Shown here: positions 52,676-64,000 of the stretch, piece by piece
Numbering within the stretch: position 1 is the first letter of the stretch
Layout: the number at the start of each line of letters is the position of its first letter
From: Serpens gallinarum
Lineage (GTDB): Bacteria > Pseudomonadota > Gammaproteobacteria > Pseudomonadales > Pseudomonadaceae
Assembly: GCF_014836765.1 (NCBI RefSeq)
Contig: NZ_JACSQG010000002.1
Location: 310,001-374,000 of the forward strand
Reading direction: 5' to 3'
Length of the DNA: 64,000 nt
Made by a program: the position numbers and the translations under genes
Notes under the pieces: generated by a model
The model's input: only the letters and a program-made list of their open reading frames with translations
Database searches by the model: none
What the model was told of the DNA's origin: nothing

Positions 52676-52810
52676 GCTTCACGTACCGCGGGTAACGCTT
52701 GGCGGTCGCATTGGCGCAGGGCGTTGGCCGAAAAATCTGCTAACAATGCCTGGCAGTGTATAAAAGGTCGCTGCGCGATAATGCGCGACATCATTTTTCG
52801 GGGAGTTTCC

Positions 52811-53548
52811 ATGACCAGCAGTGCATCACTCAGCGAAGGCGAAAAGATCCTGGTGGTCGACGACGATGCTCGCCTGCGGCGCTTGCTTGAGCGTTTCCTC
52901 GATGAGCAGGGCTACCGGGTGCGTACCGTGGAAAACGTCGAGCAGATGGACCGTCTGCTGGCCCGCGAACTGTTCAACCTGGTGGTGCTCGACTTGATGC
53001 TGCCTGGGGAGGATGGCCTGTCCGCTTGCCGCCGGCTGCGCGAGGGTAATAACCAGGTGCCGATCATCATGCTCACCGCCAAGGGCGACGAGGGCAGCCG
53101 GATCCAGGGCCTGGAAGGAGGCGCCGACGATTACCTGGCCAAGCCGTTCAATCCTCGCGAACTGCTGGCGCGCATCAAGGCGGTGCTGCGTCGTCAGGCG
53201 CCCCTGGTACCCGGCGCGCCGGGTAGCGAGGACGAAACGGTGAGTTTTGGCGACTATGAGCTGTCCCTGGCGACCCGTGAGCTGAAAAAGGGCGATCAGG
53301 TACAGATGCTCACCACCGGTGAGTTCGCCGTGCTCAAGGCGCTGGTCCAGCATGCCCGCGAGCCGTTGACCCGCGACAAGCTGATGAACCTGGCCCGCGG
53401 CCGCGAATGGGACGCCCTGGAGCGCTCCATCGATGTGCAGATCTCGCGCCTGCGCCGATTGATCGAGCCGGACCCGTCCAAGCCGCGCTACATCCAGACG
53501 GTGTGGGGCGTGGGTTATGTGTTCGTACCGGATGGGAATAAGGGCTGA
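52811..53548 (+). CDS. amgR: OmpR-family response regulator (AmgR-like)
   Basis: A 245-residue OmpR/PhoB-type regulator: receiver domain with D17-D19 and phosphoacceptor D61 in VVLDLMLPGEDG, K in LAKPFNPREL, and a winged-helix DNA-binding domain (TTGEFAVLKALVQHAREPLT, then ALERSIDVQISRLRRLIEPD). Its kinase gene follows. In P. aeruginosa the pair at this locus, between tex and rimK, is AmgRS, which governs envelope stress and aminoglycoside tolerance. The start ATG at 52811 is the usual one; a much longer frame upstream is the antisense of tex. It is divergent from tex, with a TATAAA-like box at about 52758-52763. Confidence 0.92.
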   Translation: MTSSASLSEGEKILVVDDDARLRRLLERFLDEQGYRVRTVENVEQMDRLLARELFNLVVLDLMLPGEDGLSACRRLREGNNQVPIIMLTAKGDEGSRIQGLEGGADDYLAKPFNPRELLARIKAVLRRQAPLVPGAPGSEDETVSFGDYELSLATRELKKGDQVQMLTTGEFAVLKALVQHAREPLTRDKLMNLARGREWDALERSIDVQISRLRRLIEPDPSKPRYIQTVWGVGYVFVPDGNKG

Positions 53549-53550
53549 AG

Positions 53551-53625
53551 GCCGATAAAGCGCTTAAAGCTGGAGGCTTTACGCTTTTTCGTCCAGCTTT
53601 TCAGCCTCCAGCGCTTTATTTCGGC
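53551..53625. promoter_or_regulatory. Long imperfect hairpin between amgR and amgS
   Basis: Three stacked stems: GCCG (53551-53554) / CGGC (53622-53625), ATAAAGC (53555-53561) / GCTTTAT (53613-53619), and GCTGGAGGCT (53569-53578) / AGCCTCCAGC (53603-53612). They total 21 base pairs with a seven-base bulge on the left, a two-base bulge on the right and a 24-nt loop. TTTTAATT and then the amgS ATG follow directly. The element fills the gap between the two genes and could be an attenuator or a small inserted repeat. Confidence 0.7.
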
Positions 53626-53633
53626 TTTTAATT

Positions 53634-54947
53634 ATGAAGACCCCGTTCTGGTTCCCGCAAAGCTTCTTCGCCCGCACCTTGTGGATGGTGCTCATCGTCG
53701 TGCTGTTCTCCAAGGTGCTGACCCTGGTGTACCTGATGATGAACGAGGACGTGCTGTTCGATCGTCAATACAGTCACGGCGCAGCACTCACCGTGCGCGC
53801 CTATTGGGCGGCGCCCGAAGAAGACCGTCCGCGCATTGCCGAGGCGGCCGGGCTGCGCGTCGAGGCGCGCGAGCGGGTGCCTTCGGGTGAGTACCACTGG
53901 CCCTACAGCGATATCTTCGCCCGGCAGATGCAGGATGAACTGGGGCCGGAAACCGAGGTGCGCCTGCGCGCACTGAATTCCCCCGCGCTGTGGGTATATG
54001 CGCCGAGCCTTGGCGATGACTGGCTGCGTGTACCAATGTACCCCTACCCCTTGCGCGGCCAGCGCATCTGGAGCGTGCTCGGCTGGTTCCTCGGCATTGG
54101 TTTGCTGTCCACCGCGGCGGCCTGGATTTTCGTGCGCATGCTCAATGCGCCGCTCAATCGCCTGGTTCTGGCTACACGGCAACTGGGCCTGGGGCGCAGC
54201 GTGCGCCTGCCGGTGAGCCAGACCCCGAGCGAACTGACGGAAGTTTACGGGGCCTTCAACCAGATGGCCGAGGACGTCGAACAGGCAGCGCGCGAGCGCG
54301 AGCTGATGCTGGCCGGCGTGTCCCATGACCTGCGCACGCCGCTGACGCGCTTGCGCCTGTCCCTTGAGCTGCTGCCCAGCGATGCCGAGCTGACCGAGGA
54401 CATGATCCGCGACATTGAGGACATGGATGCAATTCTCGATCAGTTCCTGGCGTTCATCCGCGATGGCCGCGACGAGCCGGTGGAGGCCCTGGACCTCGGC
54501 GCATTGGTGCGGGACGTGGCGGTGCCGTACAACCAGCAGCACGAGCGGGTATTTCTGCATCTCGAGAACATTCCGCCAATGCCCTTGCGGCGCATCTCGA
54601 TCAAGCGCCTGCTGGTGAATCTGATCGAAAATGCCCTGCGCTATGGCGGTGGCGAGGTCGAGGTGGCTGCCAGCGTGGCCGGTGATCAGGGCGCGCCTTA
54701 TGTGGTGCTCAGCGTGCTGGATCGGGGCGCCGGGTTGGCGGAGTCGGAGCTGCAGGAAATCTTCAATCCCTTTATCCGTGGCGATCGTGCCCGTGGCGGT
54801 ACCGGCACCGGGCTGGGCCTGGCAATCGTCAAGCGCATCGCGGCGCTGCATGGCGGCAGCGTCGAGTTGCGCAACCGCGAGGGCGGCGGCCTGGAAGCGC
54901 GTGTCTGCTTGCCGCTGGGGCTGTTGTTGCCGCGAGACGCGGCCTAA
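53634..54947 (+). CDS. amgS: EnvZ-like sensor histidine kinase (AmgS-like)
   Basis: Inner-membrane sensor kinase of 437 residues: first span at about 13-36, periplasmic domain to about 140, second span at about 143-165, HAMP domain, and kinase core with H231 in GVSHDLRTPLTRLR, N box NLIENALRYGG, and G boxes DRGAGL and GTGLGLAIV. The partner is AmgR upstream. No Shine-Dalgarno precedes the ATG; the sequence before it is the T-rich tail of a long hairpin, so translation may be coupled or controlled. The gene is convergent with rimK, which ends 15 bases downstream. Confidence 0.92.
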   Translation: MKTPFWFPQSFFARTLWMVLIVVLFSKVLTLVYLMMNEDVLFDRQYSHGAALTVRAYWAAPEEDRPRIAEAAGLRVEARERVPSGEYHWPYSDIFARQMQDELGPETEVRLRALNSPALWVYAPSLGDDWLRVPMYPYPLRGQRIWSVLGWFLGIGLLSTAAAWIFVRMLNAPLNRLVLATRQLGLGRSVRLPVSQTPSELTEVYGAFNQMAEDVEQAARERELMLAGVSHDLRTPLTRLRLSLELLPSDAELTEDMIRDIEDMDAILDQFLAFIRDGRDEPVEALDLGALVRDVAVPYNQQHERVFLHLENIPPMPLRRISIKRLLVNLIENALRYGGGEVEVAASVAGDQGAPYVVLSVLDRGAGLAESELQEIFNPFIRGDRARGGTGTGLGLAIVKRIAALHGGSVELRNREGGGLEARVCLPLGLLLPRDAA

Positions 54948-54961
54948 CCGTAAAGGTTGAA

Positions 54962-55867
54962 TTAACCCTTGCCGCGGGTGCGCGTCAGGCCATGGGCGGC
55001 GTTCTTTTCCAAATACTCAATGATCAGAATGGCCACATCCTTGCCGGTGGTGGTTTCGATGCCTTCCAGGCCGGGTGAGGAATTGACTTCCATGACCAGT
55101 GGGCCGTGATTGGAGCGCAGGATATCCACCCCGGCGACATTCAGGCCCATGACTCGGGCGGCGCGCAAGGCGGTCATGCGCTCCTCGGGGGTGATCTTGA
55201 TCAGGCTGGCAGAGCCTCCGCGATGCAAGTTGGAGCGGAACTCGCCAGGCTTGGCCTGGCGCTTCATCGCCGCAATCACCTTATCGCCGACCACAAAACA
55301 GCGGATGTCGGCGCCGCCGGCTTCCTTGATGTATTCCTGCACCATGATGTCCTGCTTGAGGCCCATGAACGCCTCGATCACCGATTCGGCGGCCTTCTCC
55401 GTTTCGCACAAAACTACGCCGATACCCTGAGTACCTTCCAGCACCTTGATCACCAGCGGCGCGCCGCTGACCATCTGGATCAGGTCGGGCACATCGTCCG
55501 GAGAGTGGGCAAAGCCGGTGACCGGCAGGCCGATGCCCTTGCGCGACAACAGCTGCAGCGAGCGCAGCTTGTCCCGCGAACGGCTGATCGCCACCGATTC
55601 GTTGAGCGGAAACACCCCCATCATTTCGAACTGGCGCAACACCGCGCAGCCGTAAAAGGTCACCGAGGCGCCAATACGCGGAATCACCGCATCGAAGCCT
55701 TCCAGCGGCTTGCCGCGATAATGGATCTGCGGCTTGTGGCTGGCGATATTCATATAGGCGCGCAGGGTATCGATCACTACCACTTCGTGGCCGCGTTGCT
55801 GACCGGCCTCAACCAGGCGGCGAGTGGAGTACAGGCGCGGGTTGCGCGACAGAATGGCGATCTTCAT
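54962..55867 (-). CDS. rimK: Ribosomal protein S6 glutamate ligase RimK
   Basis: ATP-grasp ligase of 301 residues that adds glutamate to the C-terminus of ribosomal protein S6. Motifs: [20 protein letters not shown] at the start, [16 protein letters not shown] (ATP-grasp lid), [20 protein letters not shown], and [14 protein letters not shown] with metal ligands. The ATG overlaps the stop of rimB by four bases. In P. fluorescens the RimABK system modifies ribosomes and affects colonisation; rimB is present here, but no rimA-like gene is seen upstream. Confidence 0.94.
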
Positions 55868-56331
55868 GATTCACCTTCAAGGTTGGCGAGCACGGGTTTG
55901 TCCTGGATATAGGAAAGAGCCGGATTGACGACCAATTGACCGTCGATCAGCGCCTTGGCGCCGAGCAATACCCGGTACCGCATGGCCTTGCGGCAGGTCA
56001 GGGTGAAGTTCACCGGCCAGGTGCGATCACCCAGCGTCAAATCAGTTCGGATCATGTAACGCAGCTGGGTCAGGCCGTTGGAACTCTTGATTTTTTTCAC
56101 CGCGACCAAGGGTGCTTCGCACCGCCGACGGCGCTGCATGAGCGCGCCCAGATGGGCGGTGAAGCGAACCCAGTCCTCGCCTTCGTGCTGGAACGGCTCA
56201 ATATCGCTGGCGTGGAGGGCGGAGGTTCCGGCGCCCGTGTCGATTTTGGCACGCAGGCCGCTCAACCCCAGTTCGGGCAAGGCAATCCACTCGCGCAGGC
56301 CGATCGCGCTCAGGTCGTCAAAGGTTTTCAA
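55864..56331 (-). CDS. rimB: RimB-like retropepsin-type protease, rimK partner
   Basis: A 155-residue protein of the family annotated as ATP-dependent zinc protease (PF05618), which has a retropepsin-like fold: the motif [13 protein letters not shown] places the aspartate at D31. In P. fluorescens RimB acts with RimK in S6 modification. The start is a TTG at 56331, giving [15 protein letters not shown], with GGAG eight bases upstream and a promoter 32 bases away; the longer frame up to 56934 covers the divergent hslR gene. It overlaps rimK by four bases. The exact activity is inferred. Confidence 0.85.
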
Positions 56332-56362
56332 GGCGGGCGCTCCCCGAATGTGGGCTTTCCCC

Positions 56363-56392
56363 GTTATAGGTGTCTGGCCGCGCGCCTCGCAA
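56363..56392 (-). promoter_or_regulatory. rimB: Probable sigma-70 promoter of rimB-rimK
   Basis: On the minus strand TTGCGA (56392-56387) and TATAAC (56368-56363) with an 18-bp spacer. The -10 differs from consensus at one base. The transcript would start about 25 bases before the TTG start of rimB, which supports that start. Confidence 0.5.
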
Positions 56393-56584
56393 CTGTTGAT
56401 ATGAAGGATAAACAGCTTCAGTCGGGGGGCCGTTGTGCGTACGTCGTGAGTCTGTTGGAACTCGACGGCGCTGCCGCTCTTCGGAGCGGGCCGCGCGGCG
56501 CGCATTCTAGAGCGCCCCGGCAATAACTGCATCTGTTGTACGCTGAGAAGGCACGATCCCCGACCGGGCCTGGAAGAGAGACTG

Positions 56585-56977
56585 ATGAACGACAAAGACA
56601 CTGACAAGATCCGCCTGGATAAATGGCTCTGGGCTGCACGTTTTTTCAAGACACGTGCCTTGGCCAAGGCGGCGATCGAAGGCGGCAAGGTGCATTGCCG
56701 CGGCGAACGCTGCAAGCCTGCCAAGGAGCCTAAATGCGGTGATGAATTGACTCTGCGCACCGGCTTCGATGAGCGCACCGTGGTCATTTTGGCCCTATCC
56801 GCGGTGCGTCGCGGCGCGACTGAAGCGCAAGCGCTGTATCGGGAAACCGACGAAAGCATTGCCAAGCGCGAGCAGGCGGCGGCGTTGCGCAAGGCGGGCG
56901 CCCTGGGCATCACCACCGAGGGGCGGCCGAGCAAGAAGCAGCGCCGGCAAATTCATCGTCTGCATGACGATTACTGA
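56585..56977 (+). CDS. hslR: Hsp15 heat-shock ribosome-associated protein
   Basis: A 130-residue RNA-binding protein with an S4 domain (IRLDKWLWAARFFKTRALAK, residues 9-28) and a basic C-terminal tail (RPSKKQRRQIHRLHDDY). Hsp15 binds 50S subunits carrying stalled nascent chains and helps recycle them. The ATG at 56585 follows GGAAGAGAG. It is divergent from rimB. Its last bases overlap the end of the convergent deacetylase gene by seven. In P. aeruginosa, as I recall, hslO and pckA follow this region; here an exopolysaccharide-type cluster begins instead. Confidence 0.92.
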   Translation: MNDKDTDKIRLDKWLWAARFFKTRALAKAAIEGGKVHCRGERCKPAKEPKCGDELTLRTGFDERTVVILALSAVRRGATEAQALYRETDESIAKREQAAALRKAGALGITTEGRPSKKQRRQIHRLHDDY

Positions 56978-57741
56978 ATGACGCCCGGCAGCGCGGAATA
57001 GGCGATGCGCGGCACGTCGGCCAGACGCCGCGCCAGCAGTTCGGTCAATGACTGGTCCGGCTCCAGGTAGGCATCGCCGAAATCGTCGTCCAGACGACTG
57101 GGATGCGCGATGACCTCAAGTATTCCGCCGCTGGGCAACGCGCCGTGGTGCAAGTCCAGCGGTGTGCACACATGGTCGGCGCTGGCGTGGCCAAGCGTGC
57201 GCAATCGCCAGTTGAGCAAGCGCTTGTAGACGCGCTTGGGCAAGGTCAGGTTGCGGCCCAAATTGCGTGCCAGGCGCAGCGGCACGCCCTGGCGGCGAGC
57301 AAAGCGGGCCACCACTTCGCCGATTGGCCAGATGTTGTGCACATGCTGGTGCGAGTCGATATGGCTAGGGCGCAGGCCATGCTCCAGGCAGCGCTGCCAT
57401 TGACTGCGCAACTCCTCTTCAATGGCCTGGCGGGTGCGCCTTGGCAGCCACAGCTGATGCTGCCGAAACTGCAGGTCAAAGTCGCCACTCGGGCTGCACA
57501 CTCCCCGTTCGGCCTGAATCGGCTGGCTCAGCGGACGACCATAAGTGAGGTTGAAATGCAGCCCGATCTTGCCTTGTAGGCGGTGTTGCTGGGTCAGCTC
57601 ACAGGCCTCGACAAAACCGGGCATGTTGGCCATCAGAGTGGCCGAGCTGATCAGGTTTTGTTCGAACGCGCTGATGATGGTGTGGTTTTCTTCAGAACTG
57701 AGGCCGAAATCATCGGCATTGATAATGACGCGCGCAATCAT
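56971..57741 (-). CDS. YdjC/ChbG-like carbohydrate deacetylase
   Basis: A 256-residue enzyme of the YdjC/HpnK/ChbG family, which removes acetyl groups from N-acetylated sugars. Metal and catalytic residues are in place: D10 and D11 in INADDFGLS, the histidine of GLHFNLTYGRPL, and the DSHQHVHNIWP motif with H131, H133 and H135. The ATG at 57741 has a strong AGGAGGT. It overlaps the upstream FemAB-like gene by four bases (ATGA), so the two are translated together. The context with other polysaccharide genes suggests a lipid-linked or exopolysaccharide substrate. Confidence 0.82.
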   Translation of the reverse strand: MIARVIINADDFGLSSEENHTIISAFEQNLISSATLMANMPGFVEACELTQQHRLQGKIGLHFNLTYGRPLSQPIQAERGVCSPSGDFDLQFRQHQLWLPRRTRQAIEEELRSQWQRCLEHGLRPSHIDSHQHVHNIWPIGEVVARFARRQGVPLRLARNLGRNLTLPKRVYKRLLNWRLRTLGHASADHVCTPLDLHHGALPSGGILEVIAHPSRLDDDFGDAYLEPDQSLTELLARRLADVPRIAYSALPGVIQ

Positions 57742-58862
57742 CGGCTTACCTCCTGCAACTTGCCGGAGCTTGAAGCCGGGACAACCTGGCGTTGCTTGCG
57801 CCACTCCCATAGGCGATGGCCAAGGCCGAGCAAAATTCCCGTAGGACTCCAGGAATAGAAGCTCCAGCGCAGGTGTTCGACCTGTCCGCTCATGCGCTCA
57901 TGCAACTGGTGGGTTGAGCCACTGCGGCTGACGCGCGAGGCGTCGATCCACTGCCAGCCCTCTTCCAAGCCCCAGCGTATCCACTCATCCAGCAACAGGC
58001 GACCGCTGCCCAGGTCAGCGTATTCCGGCAGAAACGCCAAGTTGTAGTCATAAATGCGACCGTTATGCAAAAGGGCCAGTCGGTAGCTGATGCAACGGCC
58101 TTCGTGTTCAAGCATGACCACGCGGACCAGGTCATTGGCCGCCAATGCGGTAAATGCCTGGATCATCCAGCTGCGGCGCGTGCCGGAGAAAATGCCGACT
58201 TCTTCCTGGCCTTTCCAGCTGACCTGCTCCACGGCGGCAAGGCTGTCCAGCACAGCACCGATGTTGGTGGCGTCTGGCACCACGCGGCGGATTACTGCGC
58301 CGCGTTCGTCACTGCGCTTGCGAGCCCGGCGCAACTTGTAACGCAGGTCACGGTTAGGTTCCTTGTGATCCTCGGGTGTAATCCGATGAAACGGCGCGCG
58401 GCAACTCAAATGACAATGATGGCTTGAGCTCAGGCGTGCCCAATGCTGCATGCTGCGCTGGGTGTTCTGATCGGTGGTCAGCTCGTTAAGCTGCATGACG
58501 CTATGGGGTAGGCGCCGGCCGATTTCCTTCCATGCTCGGGTTAGCCCGGTTTCATCCAGTTGGCAGACCAGTGCCAAGCGGTCACTCAGCGGATAGCCAA
58601 GGTGGCGCAGTACGCGCCAGGAAAAGCCAAATCGTGCGTCGCGCATTTGCATCAGCGGGAGGCACAGACGCAGCTGATCACCCTCCCAAGCCAGCAAAAT
58701 AAGCAGTTGCTGATTCGGCTCCAGGGCTTGTTCGGCGGCAATCAGCCAACCGATGTGATTGAACGGGGTGCAATGCGGCAGCCGGTTGCACAGTTGGTTG
58801 TAGGCATGCAGTGGAAATTCGGTGGCGGAAAGGGAATGACACCATTGGAAGCGGTAATCCAT
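57738..58862 (-). CDS. FemAB/CelD-like acyltransferase 1 of the polysaccharide cluster
   Basis: A 374-residue protein of the GNAT-like group exemplified by CelD/BcsL (PF13480, Acetyltransf_6), seen in exopolysaccharide clusters. The two-lobed fold is suggested by YKLRRARKRSDERGAVIRR before the core and by the core stretch VMLEHEGRCISYRLALLHNG and YDYNLAFLPEYADLGSG, with WIDASRVS near the end. I use the ATG at 58862 (MDYRFQWCHSL); a GTG at 58913 is possible. It overlaps the deacetylase gene by four bases and is divergent from a second gene of the same type at 59221. Acetylation of a sugar or amine is inferred only. Confidence 0.7.
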   Translation of the reverse strand: MDYRFQWCHSLSATEFPLHAYNQLCNRLPHCTPFNHIGWLIAAEQALEPNQQLLILLAWEGDQLRLCLPLMQMRDARFGFSWRVLRHLGYPLSDRLALVCQLDETGLTRAWKEIGRRLPHSVMQLNELTTDQNTQRSMQHWARLSSSHHCHLSCRAPFHRITPEDHKEPNRDLRYKLRRARKRSDERGAVIRRVVPDATNIGAVLDSLAAVEQVSWKGQEEVGIFSGTRRSWMIQAFTALAANDLVRVVMLEHEGRCISYRLALLHNGRIYDYNLAFLPEYADLGSGRLLLDEWIRWGLEEGWQWIDASRVSRSGSTHQLHERMSGQVEHLRWSFYSWSPTGILLGLGHRLWEWRKQRQVVPASSSGKLQEVSR

Positions 58863-59220
58863 GACCGAGTCGCTCAGGCTGAAAGGTAAGACGAATCGCG
58901 CACCAGGGCGCACTTGGCGGGGTTTTTACCAGTGCGGCGACGTCCTGCTGCCGCATTGACTGCAGGGATGTATAGCAGGCTTTGCCAAGGCTGGCGCACT
59001 GACAAAGCAAGAAACATATTGATGGCCAAGAGTAGGCGGGCATTGGTCCGTTTGCCGGGTCGGGTTTGTTTCTTCGGCTAAAGTTCGCAACAGCATCGAG
59101 CGCCCCCTAACCAAAGGAGTGGTTAGGCCGGTGACAGGCATGTCATCAAGCGAACCGGGGCCGACTCACTCTTCTGTCCCCTTGGGCAGCTTCCGCTTTG
59201 GTTTTTGCAGGGATGCACAC
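58863..59220. promoter_or_regulatory. Divergent control region between the two FemAB-like genes
   Basis: 358 bp without a supported gene. It must hold the promoters of both divergent transcripts. It contains a perfect palindrome at 59106-59127 and several T- and A-rich stretches (TTTTTACC near 58924, GGTTTGTTTC near 59066). In-frame GTG and ATG codons at 59119, 59131 and 59140 could extend the plus-strand gene, but the ATG at 59221 has the better ribosome site. I found no convincing pair of promoter hexamers. Confidence 0.5.
59106..59127. promoter_or_regulatory. Perfect palindrome, candidate operator
   Basis: CCTAACCA (59106-59113) and TGGTTAGG (59120-59127) form a perfect 8-bp inverted repeat with the six-base centre AAGGAG. 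Spacing of 14 bp between half-site centres fits a dimeric regulator; as RNA it would be a hairpin with a Shine-Dalgarno-like loop. It lies 93 bases before the plus-strand acyltransferase start. Confidence 0.4.
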
Positions 59221-60390
59221 ATGGATAACCTCGCTTCACTTTCTGCAGCCATGCCGCTCTCCACAGCGGTCAGTCACCGTGTCGTCGAAGTCTCATCATT
59301 TTCACAGGCCGAACCTTTTCTTGAGCGCTGGGAGCGGTTGGCGGAAAACCCCTCCGAGGCCAATGTGTTTTACGCTCCCTGGGCCCTGCGTCCGGCGCTG
59401 GAACATTTGTGCCGGGACAAGACAATCAAGTTGTTATTTTTTGTGCGTGAAGGTGGCAGCGATCTGGATGGCGTTCTGCCGTTACTGGTCAAGCGTGCCT
59501 GCCACTACCTGCCGATTTTCGGCCTGCAAAACCTGCGGCATCGGTACTGTTTTTCTACCGCCCCCTGGCTAAAAAGTGGGCGTGAGGTTGACGTGGCCTG
59601 CAGCTTCGCCCTTTGGCTGCGGAGCCATCGTTATCGTTATCCGCTGCTTATGCTGAACACCGTAACCGCTGATAGTGCATGGGTACAGGCGTTGCGCCGA
59701 CAGTTGCCGCTGCGCGGCATGCGCTTTCAGCAGACGTCCCTGGTACAGCGCGCGCTGTTGGTGCATGGCGATGATCCTGAGGATTATCTGCAACGTGCTC
59801 TGCCAAGTAAAAAACGCAAGGAGTACCGCCGTCTACGCGAGCGTCTGGCGGAGCGAGGCAATCTGCAAATCCACGAATTACAGCCGGGGGATGCGAACCT
59901 GCTATCCTGGCTCGATGCGTTCGTCGAGCTGGAACTCCAGGGCTGGAAAGGCAAGGAACAAACCGCATTGGGTAGCCGCTCAAGCTGCCGGCGTTTCTTC
60001 GAGGAGATCGCCCATGAGGCTCATCATCGCGGGCAGTTGGCCATGCTGTCGATGACCCTCGATGGCCGGCCGGTGGCCATGGTGTGTGATCTTATCGCTT
60101 CGCCAGGGTCCTTCGCTTTCAAATCGGCTTATGACGAAGCCTATGCGCGCTATGCGCCCGGTGTGCTGCTGGAGCTGGAAAATATCTGTCGAGCCCATGC
60201 CCGCCAGGCCCGCGGCCTGCGCTGGCTGGATTCCTGCTCGGCACCGGATAACGAGCTGCTCAATCGGCTGTATCTGGAACGCCGCACATTGTGCAATCTG
60301 ACCATCAGTAGCGGGCATGCCTTGGCCAATCTGTACGTGGCGCGCCTGCCTTGGCTGAAGCGTTTGCAGCAACGCATAAAACGCCTCTGA
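59221..60390 (+). CDS. FemAB/CelD-like acyltransferase 2 of the polysaccharide cluster
   Basis: A 389-residue protein of the same PF13480-like group as the gene at 57738. Similar features: a basic stretch before the core (ALPSKKRKEYRRLRERLAER), ELELQGWKGKEQTALGSR, the core MLSMTLDGRPVAMVCDLIAS and FKSAYDEAYARYAPGVLL, and LRWLDSCSAPDNELLNRLYL near the end. The ATG at 59221 has AGGGA seven bases upstream. It is alone on the plus strand, between a divergent acyltransferase and a convergent acetyltransferase 14 bases away. It may modify the same polymer as its paralogue. Confidence 0.7.
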   Translation: MDNLASLSAAMPLSTAVSHRVVEVSSFSQAEPFLERWERLAENPSEANVFYAPWALRPALEHLCRDKTIKLLFFVREGGSDLDGVLPLLVKRACHYLPIFGLQNLRHRYCFSTAPWLKSGREVDVACSFALWLRSHRYRYPLLMLNTVTADSAWVQALRRQLPLRGMRFQQTSLVQRALLVHGDDPEDYLQRALPSKKRKEYRRLRERLAERGNLQIHELQPGDANLLSWLDAFVELELQGWKGKEQTALGSRSSCRRFFEEIAHEAHHRGQLAMLSMTLDGRPVAMVCDLIASPGSFAFKSAYDEAYARYAPGVLLELENICRAHARQARGLRWLDSCSAPDNELLNRLYLERRTLCNLTISSGHALANLYVARLPWLKRLQQRIKRL

Positions 60391-60403
60391 ACGACGCGCG
60401 ATA

Positions 60404-61078
60404 TCACTTGGAGCGGGCCAACCCTGGCTCGCTCCCAGCGGCCTGTTTATGCAGGATTGGAACAGCAGGCTGGCGCGTGTAGCGGATACAGCCGAACAAG
60501 GTATAAGCGTGCACAATGCGTCCATCCGGCTGAAAACCGAGGCGCCGGATCAGGCGCAGCATAAGGTGGTTGTGGGCGTCGACCACTGCCACCGCCCGTC
60601 GATAGCCACGCTTTTGCAACAGTTGCCATAGATGGTTCTGGCCGCCGAGAAACACCGCGCTGCCACGATGGGCCATCGCCACTTCCAGGGCGAACAGGTA
60701 GGCATCCCCGGCAGCGACTGGAAACCAGCCACGGAAGTAATGAGCGTCATAATAATCCCGTGGGCTGATCCACATGTAGGCGCACACCTCGCCTTGCTGG
60801 TTCAGCGCGACATAGCCGTGCAGGTCGGGCTGGGCCAGCAGGTCACGCATCACGCCGATCTGCCCGGGGAAATGCTTTGCAAACGCCGGCAGCAGCTCGC
60901 TTCGTGTATCCACATACTCCCAGGCGTGTCGACGGGGCAAGGACAGCGGATTGCCATGCAGCTCACGGGCAAACCAGATGAGCTGATGATGGGCATACAG
61001 GTAACGCTCGGTGAACAAGCGCAGACTTCCCATCAATCCCTTGCGCTGAAGTTTGCTGTATAGCTGACGAATGCTCAT
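60404..61078 (-). CDS. GNAT-like acetyltransferase of the polysaccharide cluster
   Basis: A 224-residue cytoplasmic protein. A basic N-terminal helix (MSIRQLYSKLQRKGLMGSLR) precedes a GNAT-like core: YVALNQQGEVCAYMWIS, YLFALEVAMAHRGSAVFLGG and a final AHNHLMLRLIRRLGFQPDG that resembles the GNAT motif B turn. The acetyl-CoA loop is not classical, so this could be a diverged member. ATG at 61078 has GGGAG five bases upstream and overlaps the stop of the glycosidase-like gene (ATGA). Role in the cluster is inferred from position only. Confidence 0.6.
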   Translation of the reverse strand: MSIRQLYSKLQRKGLMGSLRLFTERYLYAHHQLIWFARELHGNPLSLPRRHAWEYVDTRSELLPAFAKHFPGQIGVMRDLLAQPDLHGYVALNQQGEVCAYMWISPRDYYDAHYFRGWFPVAAGDAYLFALEVAMAHRGSAVFLGGQNHLWQLLQKRGYRRAVAVVDAHNHLMLRLIRRLGFQPDGRIVHAYTLFGCIRYTRQPAVPILHKQAAGSEPGLARSK

Positions 61079-62997
61079 GGCTGCTCCCAAGTGAGAGCGA
61101 ACAGCGACTCTGCGGGAACCTCGAACTGCCAGGCGCCTGACACGCAGTTCACCGCCCCAGGCAAAATGGGCGTAGCGCTGAATAAATCCAGCTGGGGAGG
61201 GTCGAGCCCGGAGCAGGTCGTATTGGCGGCTGTAAAGCGTATCTGCTGCAGGCGATCGACCTTGTTGACGCCCAGCAGGTTGTGATGCTTGCCGGAGCGG
61301 CTGGCCAATGCATCGACTTCAAACGCATCGTTGTCTAGCAGCAGGACATCCTCGCCCCAGTAGCGCTGCATGAAATTCATCGCGTGCCCCACCGGCCTGA
61401 GGCTGTAATTACCGGCAGAATCAAGGCGCAGCATGCCCTTGAAATGACCGTCGTCATCGGCCAACAGGAACCAGTTGAGCATGTCCAGCAACCCATCCGC
61501 AGAAGACTGTATGGCGACGGATGCCCACCACAGCGCAGCGAATTGCGTGTCCTGCTCGTAATGACTGATGGTGTTACCGCTGGACAGGTTGGTCTGATCG
61601 ATCAGCAGCGCCTTGCGCGGCCGGCCCTGTTTGTCGAGACCCACCAGGTCGGCAGCCTGGCGCACGCTGTAGCGATACCAGTCGGTAGCCCGCAGGTCAC
61701 GAATCATCCATTCATGCCAGGCCAGCGCGTCGATCAGGGGCTCATGCTCGTCCAACAGGCGTTTTGCCCAGTCAATCCCTCGCCGGTTTCGGGCATCGGT
61801 CATAGTCGGGCCATTGACCAACCGCGAGGAGGCCGGAATGGCGATGCGGATACCGGCAGCGTGGGCGCCAGGGTGAGCGCGTACCCGTTCGGCCATGGCG
61901 CGGAAGTAGTCGGCAAAACGGGGATAACTGGAGTAGTTGAGATTGGGTTCGTCGGCCATGGACAAATAATGAATGCCGCCGGCGCCCAGGCTCGACGTGC
62001 TGTCCAGCCAGGCCTGCAGGCCTGCGCGACTGGTGGCATCAAAGTCCAGATCAGCCACCCGCCCTGTTTTCGCCAATAAGGTGATGTCGTGGGCAATGCC
62101 GTATTTGTGCCGAAACAGTGGGCGAAAGCGTTGTTCATGTTGCGGGTTGCGGGCCATGACATTGACGAAACTGTAATGGCCGCCTGCTTGAGGGCTAAGC
62201 GTGCCCAGCAAGGTGGCGTCCTCCGGCAGGCTGTAAGGCAGCGCCACGCCGAGTTTTGCCGTAGGGCCGAGCACCTTGTCGTGCAGTGACAGGCCGACCC
62301 GGCCCGGTTTCTGGATGGGCTGGTACAGATGCTCCGGGCGCTGGGCAAAGAGATTGTCGGTGCCGTCCAGCCAGAAGGCGGCCTTGCCTTTGCCCTGCAG
62401 GTGCAAGCGCCAGATCTGTTCCTCAGCCGATACCGGCAGGCTGACCAGGTCGCTGCGCGGATACAGGGTATGGCGCTGCAATTTCAAGTGCACCTGGTGC
62501 CTGTCGCTCAGCCGCTCGGCGGTCAGGGCATGGACACCGCCATGGTGTTTGCCTCCCAGCTGCGCGTTAACCCCGGCCGGGACGCGAAAATACAGTGTCT
62601 GATCCCGGCTGGCCTCGATGCTGAAATGCGTTTTTACCGGTTCGAACAGCGAGGCGGTTTTATCGCCATGCCGGACCTGGTAAAGCCGGAAGCTGTAGCC
62701 GGGGATTTCCAGACGATAGCCGCTGCTTGCGGCGCGTAACGGCCATTGTCGCGTGCCGCGCTGCTCGCGGGCGGGAATCTCGAAGCGTTGTAACAACTGG
62801 CCGCTGCTGTCCTGCAAATACAGCCGTTCCTCGTTGGCATCTGCCTGCCAGGCCGGTTCCCAGGCGATCAGCAGAGGCTCGTCCACAGCAGGTTTCAGGT
62901 GCAGCGCACCGTCTCGAATGCCCGACCATTCCAGGCCGTGGGCGAGAGGTGGCAGGCTGGCAATCAGTAGCCAGGCTAGAGCCCATCGGCTTCGCAT
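61075..62997 (-). CDS. Secreted TIM-barrel glycoside-hydrolase-like protein
   Basis: A 640-residue exported protein: signal peptide in residues 1-21 (MRSRWALAWLLIASLPPLAHG), an N-terminal beta-rich region to about 270, and a TIM-barrel-like domain of the GH-A type. HYLSMADEPNLNYSS carries E350 at the place of the acid/base glutamate in the NEP-like motif; the expected nucleophile strand reads KALLIDQTNLSSG with D467 where glutamate is usual. FVNVMARNP and LAWHEWMIRDL are other barrel strands. It could cut or modify the polymer made by this cluster, like PslG in the Psl system, but the family is not certain. It overlaps the flippase gene by 22 bases. Confidence 0.65.
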   Translation of the reverse strand: MRSRWALAWLLIASLPPLAHGLEWSGIRDGALHLKPAVDEPLLIAWEPAWQADANEERLYLQDSSGQLLQRFEIPAREQRGTRQWPLRAASSGYRLEIPGYSFRLYQVRHGDKTASLFEPVKTHFSIEASRDQTLYFRVPAGVNAQLGGKHHGGVHALTAERLSDRHQVHLKLQRHTLYPRSDLVSLPVSAEEQIWRLHLQGKGKAAFWLDGTDNLFAQRPEHLYQPIQKPGRVGLSLHDKVLGPTAKLGVALPYSLPEDATLLGTLSPQAGGHYSFVNVMARNPQHEQRFRPLFRHKYGIAHDITLLAKTGRVADLDFDATSRAGLQAWLDSTSSLGAGGIHYLSMADEPNLNYSSYPRFADYFRAMAERVRAHPGAHAAGIRIAIPASSRLVNGPTMTDARNRRGIDWAKRLLDEHEPLIDALAWHEWMIRDLRATDWYRYSVRQAADLVGLDKQGRPRKALLIDQTNLSSGNTISHYEQDTQFAALWWASVAIQSSADGLLDMLNWFLLADDDGHFKGMLRLDSAGNYSLRPVGHAMNFMQRYWGEDVLLLDNDAFEVDALASRSGKHHNLLGVNKVDRLQQIRFTAANTTCSGLDPPQLDLFSATPILPGAVNCVSGAWQFEVPAESLFALTWEQP

Positions 62998-64000
62998 ACC
63001 GGTCTCCGTCGCAGGTGATTGAACAGAAAACGCAGATCGCTGGGCAGGATCAATAGGGTGTTGGCGAACGCCACGCCGCTGAGGCGGCAATACAAGCACA
63101 ACATGCCCAGCGCCAGCAGGCTGTAGGCCAGCGATGAGGCATAGGCCGCGCCGACGATGCCCCAGTGGGGAATCAGGAAGAACGTCAGGCTCAGGTTGAT
63201 TGCCGCGGCCACGCCGGCCATCACTGAAAGGGCCCCGGGACGTCGTTTGCCCAGCAGGTCAAGATGGAGGATGCTGGCGTAACACAGGCTGAAGATGCCC
63301 GGCAGCAAGGCCACCAGGGCCGGATAAGCGGGCTGGTAGGCACTGCCGAACAGCAGCACGATCAGCCACTCGCCGACCACCGCCATGCTCAGGCAGGCGG
63401 CGAGCATGGCGGTTCCGGTCAGGCGCAGGGCCAGTGGGGTCAGTTCATCAATGCCTTCACCCTGTTGTAGCAAACGCTTCATCAGTGGAGTGGTCACCGC
63501 CTCGGGGACGATGATCAGCAATTCGGCAGCGGCACTGGCCATGGCGTAATAACCCAGCGCTTCACTGTCGAGCAGCAAACCGATCAACAGGTAATCCGAG
63601 CGCATGAGAATCTGCTGAAACAGGATGTCTGGATGGCTTTTGCCACCAAAACGCAGCATCTCGCTGCGGCTGTCCCGGTCCCAGCGCAGGCGGATGCTGT
63701 GATAACGGCCCAGCAGGCACAGGCCGACGACGGCCACCAGCAGCAAGCCGCCGATCCAGCTGATCAACGCCGCTTCCAAGGCGAAGCGTTGCCACATCAA
63801 AAATAAACTTAGAAACAGCAACAGCGGCACCAGCGACTCAATCAGGCGCAGGCTGTTGAACGCGCCGACCTTGCCGTCGGCATTGTGCAGATTGAGCAGG
63901 GCGCTCTTCATGACGAACAGCGGCACCACCAATAGCAATAGCCAGGCGAGCGAGCCGAGTTCCTGAGTAATTTCCAGGCTCTGGCCGAACTGCTGCAGCA
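62976..64000 (-). CDS. Oligosaccharide flippase (Wzx/MATE-like), 5' end outside window
   Basis: A polytopic membrane protein of the polysaccharide exporter superfamily. At least 340 residues are seen, and the frame is open to the window edge, so the N-terminus is missing. About nine spans are visible. FGGKSHPDILFQQILMRSDYLLIG matches the middle of Wzx/RfbX proteins, and EALGYYAMASAAAELL the next span with the substrate-lining region. It probably moves lipid-linked repeat units across the inner membrane. The gene overlaps the glycosidase-like gene, so further cluster genes likely lie upstream beyond 64000. Confidence 0.8.
   Translation of the reverse strand, partial: LQQFGQSLEITQELGSLAWLLLLVVPLFVMKSALLNLHNADGKVGAFNSLRLIESLVPLLLFLSLFLMWQRFALEAALISWIGGLLLVAVVGLCLLGRYHSIRLRWDRDSRSEMLRFGGKSHPDILFQQILMRSDYLLIGLLLDSEALGYYAMASAAAELLIIVPEAVTTPLMKRLLQQGEGIDELTPLALRLTGTAMLAACLSMAVVGEWLIVLLFGSAYQPAYPALVALLPGIFSLCYASILHLDLLGKRRPGALSVMAGVAAAINLSLTFFLIPHWGIVGAAYASSLAYSLLALGMLCLYCRLSGVAFANTLLILPSDLRFLFNHLRRRPVCEADGL

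Follow-up and report, generated by a model that had tools for sequence, protein, structure and literature searches.

We consider it highly likely that a 64,000 nucleotide stretch of Serpens gallinarum (the window, positions 310001-374000 of its contig within a 3.9 Mb genome, G000) carries, next to hslR, the distal part of an entire pap cluster, which is located between hslR and hslO and contains one additional acyltransferase gene of predicted FemX-type fold. The contig was examined past position 64000, where the window ends, and coordinates beyond that point continue the window numbering along the same contig. On the minus strand, 16 genes (56971-76358) form a complete Wzx/Wzy-type exopolysaccharide locus between hslR and hslO-pckA, with hslO and pckA located beyond papA and divergent from the cluster. 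The names hslR, hslO and pckA were given by eye and are our presumption.

The initial annotation had considered the genes of this cluster unassigned. They are not, because gene order and near-identical protein lengths match those of papA-papP. This cluster for a "Pseudomonas acidic polysaccharide" (Pap) is known from an in silico description of P. fluorescens F113 published in 2020 (PMC7716237). The F113 cluster (P. fluorescens/ogarae) comprises PSF113_1970-1955, that of P. protegens PFL_3078-3093. All 16 minus-strand genes follow the papA-papP order listed for F113 in Table 1 of that publication, the families of the genes outside the window agree with the published Pap assignments, and the predicted functions and the Wzx/Wzy route are the same. 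The match to F113 rests on gene order, published functions and protein lengths (our Table 1), which depend on gene starts chosen among several possible ones; sequence kinship was measured against other loci. The six genes next to hslR which had been described initially are all present as open reading frames (ORFs) at their positions, and five of them match published pap genes in order and length. The sixth, a FemAB-like gene on the plus strand, lies outside papA-papP, so that the described system accounts for five of the six.

For the comparison of sequences, one genome scan for PapM relatives provided the best 80 of 104 confirmed stretches, which were examined with 10-kb flanks (named loci, L codes). 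Two of the 80 come from one genome, TNT3; P. brassicacearum (L042) is inside this set and F113 outside it. The ten genes papD-papM occur in the published order in 71 named loci, including L042, with median identities of 47-67%. The six genes had been proposed to serve one exopolysaccharide cluster, and the order kept in these 71 loci supports this, since it shows that the genes have not come together by chance. In six of the other nine loci no further pap gene was seen, a 22% epimerase hit in L015 aside. L039 consists of a 4.7 kb contig that carries papM-papP, L040 is cut by its contig end and L059 by the flank limit. Within the flanks, 12 pap genes in order were found in P. thermotolerans (L013) and 13 in Pseudomonas sp. 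R5 (L014). A papO relative is present in 74 of the 80 loci, and papO and papP follow papM in most. In genomes G220 and G149, papA-papC precede papD-papM.

An unrelated, new exopolysaccharide system which merely resembles Pap is extremely improbable. It would be in line with the moderate identities to the named Pseudomonas loci and with the lineage not being named in the available parts of the published Pap accounts, but the same 16 genes in the same order and with near-identical lengths, together with the long ordered runs in L013 and L014, argue against it.

Glycosyltransferases, a polymerase and an export pair had been named as what to look for beyond position 64000. Three glycosyltransferases, a Wzy_C protein and a Wza-type exporter are indeed encoded there, as are a Wzz-type protein, a separate and weakly matched kinase-like ATPase, a phosphosugar transferase and nucleotide-sugar enzymes. 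As the first gene is of the UDP-glucose/GDP-mannose dehydrogenase type, an acidic polymer is expected, and from its gene content the cluster is predicted to produce an acidic extracellular polysaccharide.

The Pap cluster as such is already known. The lineage variant with the FemX-fold gene is not named in the available parts of the published Pap accounts. A papA mutant was reported to show normal attachment and biofilm structure and to form a biofilm more resistant to sodium dodecyl sulfate than that of the wild type (2024; PMC10850567). Expression of papA is reported to increase with cyclic di-GMP (c-di-GMP) in a FleQ-dependent manner, with FleQ-binding sites upstream (PMC9279365), and promoter mutations upstream of PFL_3078 arose during experimental evolution of P. 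protegens (PMC8370652).

An additional acyltransferase gene within pap

The additional gene, called celD2 here, probably starts at 59221, an earlier GTG at 59119 being possible. It is divergent from papO and convergent with papN and thus interrupts the minus-strand run: papO and papN are not adjacent because celD2 sits between them on the opposite strand. This distinguishes the cluster from published Pap.

In a family sample of 298 genomes from 19 genera (PapM counted at E<=1e-20, celD2 at E<=1e-40), celD2 was found in five genomes from two genera (G000, G001, G017, G032, G064). All five copies are inside pap, between papM/papN and papO; G032 has no papN at this position. G076, from the same genus, carries pap but lacks celD2, and is the one exception among the six genomes with papM in the two genera. 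Two of the 80 named loci contain the gene: in P. thermotolerans (L013) it occupies the same place, without papN, whereas in P. fluorescens PS918 (L049) a relative is encoded on the pap strand behind papP. Elsewhere in the order, 293 genomes yielded three distant relatives (22-26% identity, E<=1e-15). Within the own genome no second match was found at E<=0.001, papO included.

It could be argued that this is plain Pap and that celD2 is a passenger unrelated to the polymer, a reading that we regard as not very likely. The gene is on the opposite strand, its GC content at third codon positions (0.649) is below that of every other gene in the cluster (0.686-0.787), it is missing from G076, and it is found in only two of the 73 named loci with pap context (PapM together with papK and papL), all of which would fit a passenger. 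However, each of the five carrying family genomes has it at the same place within pap, and the PS918 relative is on the pap strand. Furthermore, a GNAT-like acyltransferase gene follows papP in 45 of the 73 named pap loci, so extra acyltransferases are common in pap.

The AlphaFold2 model of the celD2 protein (mean local confidence, pLDDT, 87.0) has FemX (6snr) as top structural match (Z 21.4, root mean square deviation (rmsd) 4.5, 309 aligned). Next are FemA, two streptothricin aminoacyl-tRNA-dependent peptide synthases, a function-unassigned Bacteroides protein and MprF. This group from FemX to MprF has Z 16.3-21.4 and rmsd 3.5-5.8, compared to Z 12-14.5 for CoA-using tandem GNATs, and a FemX-type double-GNAT fold is predicted from the model. 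The fold is common to FemX, FemA and MprF, which are aminoacyl-tRNA-dependent transferases, at 8-14% identity; aminoacyl-tRNA use is a candidate for the celD2 protein. A search of PDB sequences gave no match at E<=1. The best NCBIfam model, effector crotonyl transferase, was rejected as an assignment, as its score of 119.5 bits is far below the required 775 and indicates domain kinship only; the same model is the best one for PapO, with 31.7 bits, and is read in the same way.

FemX and FemA act on peptidoglycan precursors, and this would be in line with tailoring genes that act on lipopolysaccharide or peptidoglycan and not on the Pap polymer, as would the location of papO- and papN-like genes at the other cluster end in the distant genome G055. 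Such a role is nevertheless improbable: even in G055 these genes adjoin papC, and papO is found after papM, directly or with intervening genes, in all 73 named loci with pap context.

Two weak sigma-70-like matches near celD2 (0.7 expected), both inside the gene and on its other strand, and six terminator-like sites (2.1 expected) were not used.

The predicted barrel protein PapM

Five of the six proteins match the Pfam kinds named in the initial annotation. The exception is PapM (674 aa in its longest frame), for which no Pfam family and, in a PDB sequence search, no match at E<=10 was found. Four weak Pfam families obtained among 33 PapM relatives (best 0.0019, in two of the 33) were not believed. 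PapM had been described as a glycosidase-like secreted protein, which is supported for its fold in the model and is doubtful for its activity. In the AlphaFold2 model (pLDDT 90.4), a hydrophobic helix and a beta region at the N-terminus are followed by a barrel of the clan GH-A type. Chains of GH30, GH79, GH39 and GH51 match with Z 28-32 over about 330-370 residues, where values within 1 Z are tied (for example 8b0d, Z 31.3, rmsd 2.9, 366 aligned); this list is a re-scoring of Foldseek matches and families outside it are possible. The F113 protein (658 aa) is predicted to be periplasmic (PMC7716237).

According to the model, PapM shares the barrel, the C-terminal sheet and a glutamate with clan GH-A (GH79 beta-glucuronidase/heparanase, GH30, GH39, GH51). 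This residue, Glu350 in the motif DEPN, follows the fourth barrel strand (strands counted from the model) and does not vary among 33 aligned sequences. PapM differs from the clan by the additional N-terminal beta region and probably by Gln468, where GH79 relatives have the Glu of E-x-N-S. The motif after the seventh strand is x-Q-T-N, with Gln468 in all 33 aligned sequences and likewise in every one of 102 distinct matches to a pattern in which EPN, RDL, TN and SSG were fixed and Q was left free; as the Glu of EPN was fixed, these matches say nothing on the conservation of Glu350. Position 467 is Asp in 26 sequences, Glu in five, and Ser and Ala in one each, the latter two in the distant genomes G055 and G056. 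Two GH79-like proteins of genome G1060 have E-G-N-S and E-C-N-S at the site, the first being aligned to E-T-N-S of 5bwi; both are below the Pfam cut-off, one matching GH79 chains at 8.5e-82 with the other being 60% identical. GH39 was not retained as a yardstick, as matches were limited to two of 143 genomes and only one, a partial match, exceeded the cut-off. We take the Glu of E-x-N-S to be the GH79 nucleophile. Because a Gln is found at this expected nucleophile position, ordinary hydrolysis by PapM is doubtful. PapM may bind the chain or process it atypically; an ordinary enzyme role, via Asp/Glu467, is possible.

PapM relatives of about 636 aa (53-55% identical) occur without papC-papP genes being found nearby in L015, L016, L017, L019, L021 and L032, where they lie at about 10 kb of the stretch. 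In L015, the relative is found beside two acyltransferase-3-like membrane proteins (named by eye). In L016, it is located between lactate-permease-like and tonB/exbD/exbB-like genes (likewise named by eye), with a contig end 2 kb away.

Distribution of pap and a proposed decoration pathway

PapM is found in 43 of the 298 family genomes, from 8 of the 19 genera. It occurs in seven of 57 relatives, two of which (G055, G056) are among 21 genomes from other families of the order, G056 being fragmentary. A class-wide draw of 369 genomes yielded PapM in the own genome and in none of the 368 others (E<=1e-5). The complete pathway has been reported only for Pseudomonas, with homologues elsewhere only for PapA-PapD (PMC7716237). 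This has to be qualified because G055, from another family, has papC-papM in Pap order (L128 and L144), adjoining radC-like and coaBC-like genes (named by eye). Its papO- and papN-like genes (30% and 28%) are found beside papC instead of after papM, and PapA and PapB were not found in the G055 stretches examined.

The hslR and hslO/pckA site is common on both sides to G001, G017 and G149. The hslR side is seen in P. thermotolerans (L013), hslO in G064, and hslO with pckA in G076; hslR was not found within 6-7 kb past papP in G064 and G076, though hslO adjoins papA there. Neither hslR nor hslO was found in the stretches from genera g5, g6, g9, g15 and g18, some of which stop short of the papA end. 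Genomes from three genera (g1, g16, g17) have pap at this chromosomal site; the hslR-hslO-pckA site, common to genomes of g17 and g16, differs from that of the named loci, where hslR is near one of 80 (L013). A plasmid origin was rejected, as a search of 72,556 plasmid records for PapM gave no match.

Genes after papM are variable. They were scored by tblastn at 1e-5, at which fast-changing genes may escape. Besides the 45 named pap loci with a GNAT-like gene after papP, eight have such a gene after papO but yielded no papP. In all, nine patterns occur in the 73 loci, at least two of which end at contig ends (L047 and L088 end early). These patterns point to acyl/deacyl decoration as the varying part of Pap.

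In the pathway that we propose, PapA and PapB would supply UDP-uronic acid together with epimerised UDP-sugars, PapC would load a sugar phosphate onto undecaprenyl phosphate, and PapG, PapI and PapJ would build the acidic repeat unit. On the cytoplasmic side, where PapK, PapN, PapO and PapP are predicted to be located (PMC7716237), PapK and PapP may N-deacetylate amino-sugar residues of the lipid-linked unit, and PapN, PapO and the celD2 enzyme may transfer acyl, possibly aminoacyl, groups to the amines that this exposes. The decorated unit would be flipped by PapL, polymerised by PapH under the control of PapD and PapF, and exported by PapE. In the periplasm, PapM would work on the chain by binding or atypical processing and not as an ordinary retaining glycosidase. 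The celD2 enzyme would provide this lineage with a different decoration of the same polymer.

A comparable principle has been put forward for the Caulobacter holdfast, a flipped and polymerised adhesive polysaccharide: the deacetylase HfsH would expose amines, which HfsK, a GNAT protein nearest to Fem proteins, would then acylate (PMC5362036, PMC8449245). The likeness is one of principle. Genes and gene order differ, HfsK is a c-di-GMP-binding protein whose gene lies apart from the hfs locus, and a negative result was reported for HfsK in Hirschia (PMC8449245).

Several points weigh against our proposal. The decoration step, deacetylation followed by re-acylation, is plausible but deduced from the families involved, and the fold shared with FemX leaves by itself the acyl donor of the celD2 enzyme undecided. 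PapB may act on several UDP-sugars as their epimerase. The available parts of the published accounts were found to contain no chemical composition of Pap. With respect to PapM, the equation of Gln468 with the GH79 Glu position rests on strand order in the model and a short motif, and an Asp or Glu is located one residue before Gln468 throughout the Pseudomonadaceae sequences. An hhalign comparison of PapM with the GH79-like pair of G1060 found no match (Prob 0.3), which weakens the claim of a lost nucleophile. PapM may also have another substrate, or a role outside Pap, since six of the 80 named loci carry a relative without other pap genes found nearby.

A more far-reaching version, which we consider distinctly unlikely, would view Pap as a platform with exchangeable decoration enzymes, where the FemX-like enzyme aminoacylates amines exposed by PapK and PapP, perhaps from aminoacyl-tRNA, and a PapM devoid of its nucleophile recognises or rearranges the chain. 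If true, this lineage would have an aminoacylated exopolysaccharide. Two questions are raised: which group is moved by the additional FemX-fold enzyme, and whether PapM is a catalyst or not.

Gene features of the cluster

Table 1 Genes of the pap region, listed from the hslR side. Positions follow the extended window numbering; F113 lengths are from PMC7716237.
Gene	Position	Strand	Length here (aa)	Length in F113 (aa)	Kind	Match
papP	56971..57741 (ORF 56971-57810)	-	256	260	YdjC/ChbG-type carbohydrate deacetylase	Pfam YdjC, E 5.6e-44
papO	57738..58862 (ORF 57738-58913)	-	374	391	FemAB/CelD-like acyltransferase	Acetyltransf_6, 9.5e-19
celD2	59221..60390	+			predicted FemX-fold acyltransferase, not in papA-P	Acetyltransf_6, 4.1e-22
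papN	60404..61078 (ORF 60404-61090)	-	224	229	GNAT-type acyltransferase	Pfam Acetyltransf_1, 1.4e-4 (22.6 bits, cut-off 20.7)
papM	61075..62997 (ORF 61075-63099)	-	640	658	clan GH-A-type barrel protein	
papL	62976..64298 (cut by window edge; ORF 62976-63998 in window)	-	440	434	Wzx-type flippase	Pfam Polysacc_synt_3, 3.9e-15 (window part), 2.8e-22 (complete protein)
papK	past window	-	334	334	polysaccharide deacetylase	Polysacc_deac_1, 2e-22
papJ	past window	-	378	378	GT2 glycosyltransferase	
papI	past window	-	321	319	GT2 glycosyltransferase	
papH	past window	-	456	456	Wzy_C polymerase-type protein	Wzy_C over Pfam cut-off
papG	past window	-	368	367	GT4 glycosyltransferase	
papF	past window	-	530	530	Wzz-type protein	Wzz over Pfam cut-off, GNVR below cut-off
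papE	past window	-	332	340	Wza-type exporter	Poly_export and SLBB over Pfam cut-offs
papD	past window	-	223	214	tyrosine-kinase-like ATPase, weak	tyrosine-autokinase models below curated cut-offs
papC	past window	-	248	248	polyprenyl phosphosugar transferase	Bac_transf over Pfam cut-off
papB	past window	-	356	352	epimerase/dehydratase type	nearest PDB chain titled dTDP-glucose 4,6-dehydratase
papA	past window, outermost, to 76358	-	450	454	nucleotide-sugar dehydrogenase	TIGR03026 NDP-sugar dehydrogenase, 442 bits (cut-off 189.8); next the UDP-glucose dehydrogenase model TuaD, 438 bits (under its cut-off 700)

Four-base overlaps on the minus strand had been reported for the group next to hslR. 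Overlaps of exactly four bases exist at papP/papO and papN/papM, and just outside the window at papL/papK, while the frame at 59119-60390 lies on the plus strand. The papM/papL overlap is 22 bases. In total, 14 of the 15 papA-papP junctions overlap or are at most 40 bases apart; the 15th, papN/papO, holds celD2.

PapP keeps the motifs NADDFG, GLHFNLT and HIDSHQHVH, which we assume to represent the metal and active site, and its best PDB relation is the chitooligosaccharide deacetylase 7vi8 (E 3.4e-23). PapK weakly resembles PgaB-type deacetylases.

Upstream of papA (just above 76358; L003), TTGAC before CTATACC was found by eye in six of eight aligned genomes. The seventh has CTGAC in place of TTGAC, and G149 is without the element, which is possibly a common promoter.

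Before hslR, the window (52800-56530) has an ordinary-looking set of genes, for which names were given by eye and are presumptive: an OmpR/EnvZ-like pair, a RimK-like protein and an aspartyl-protease-like protein.

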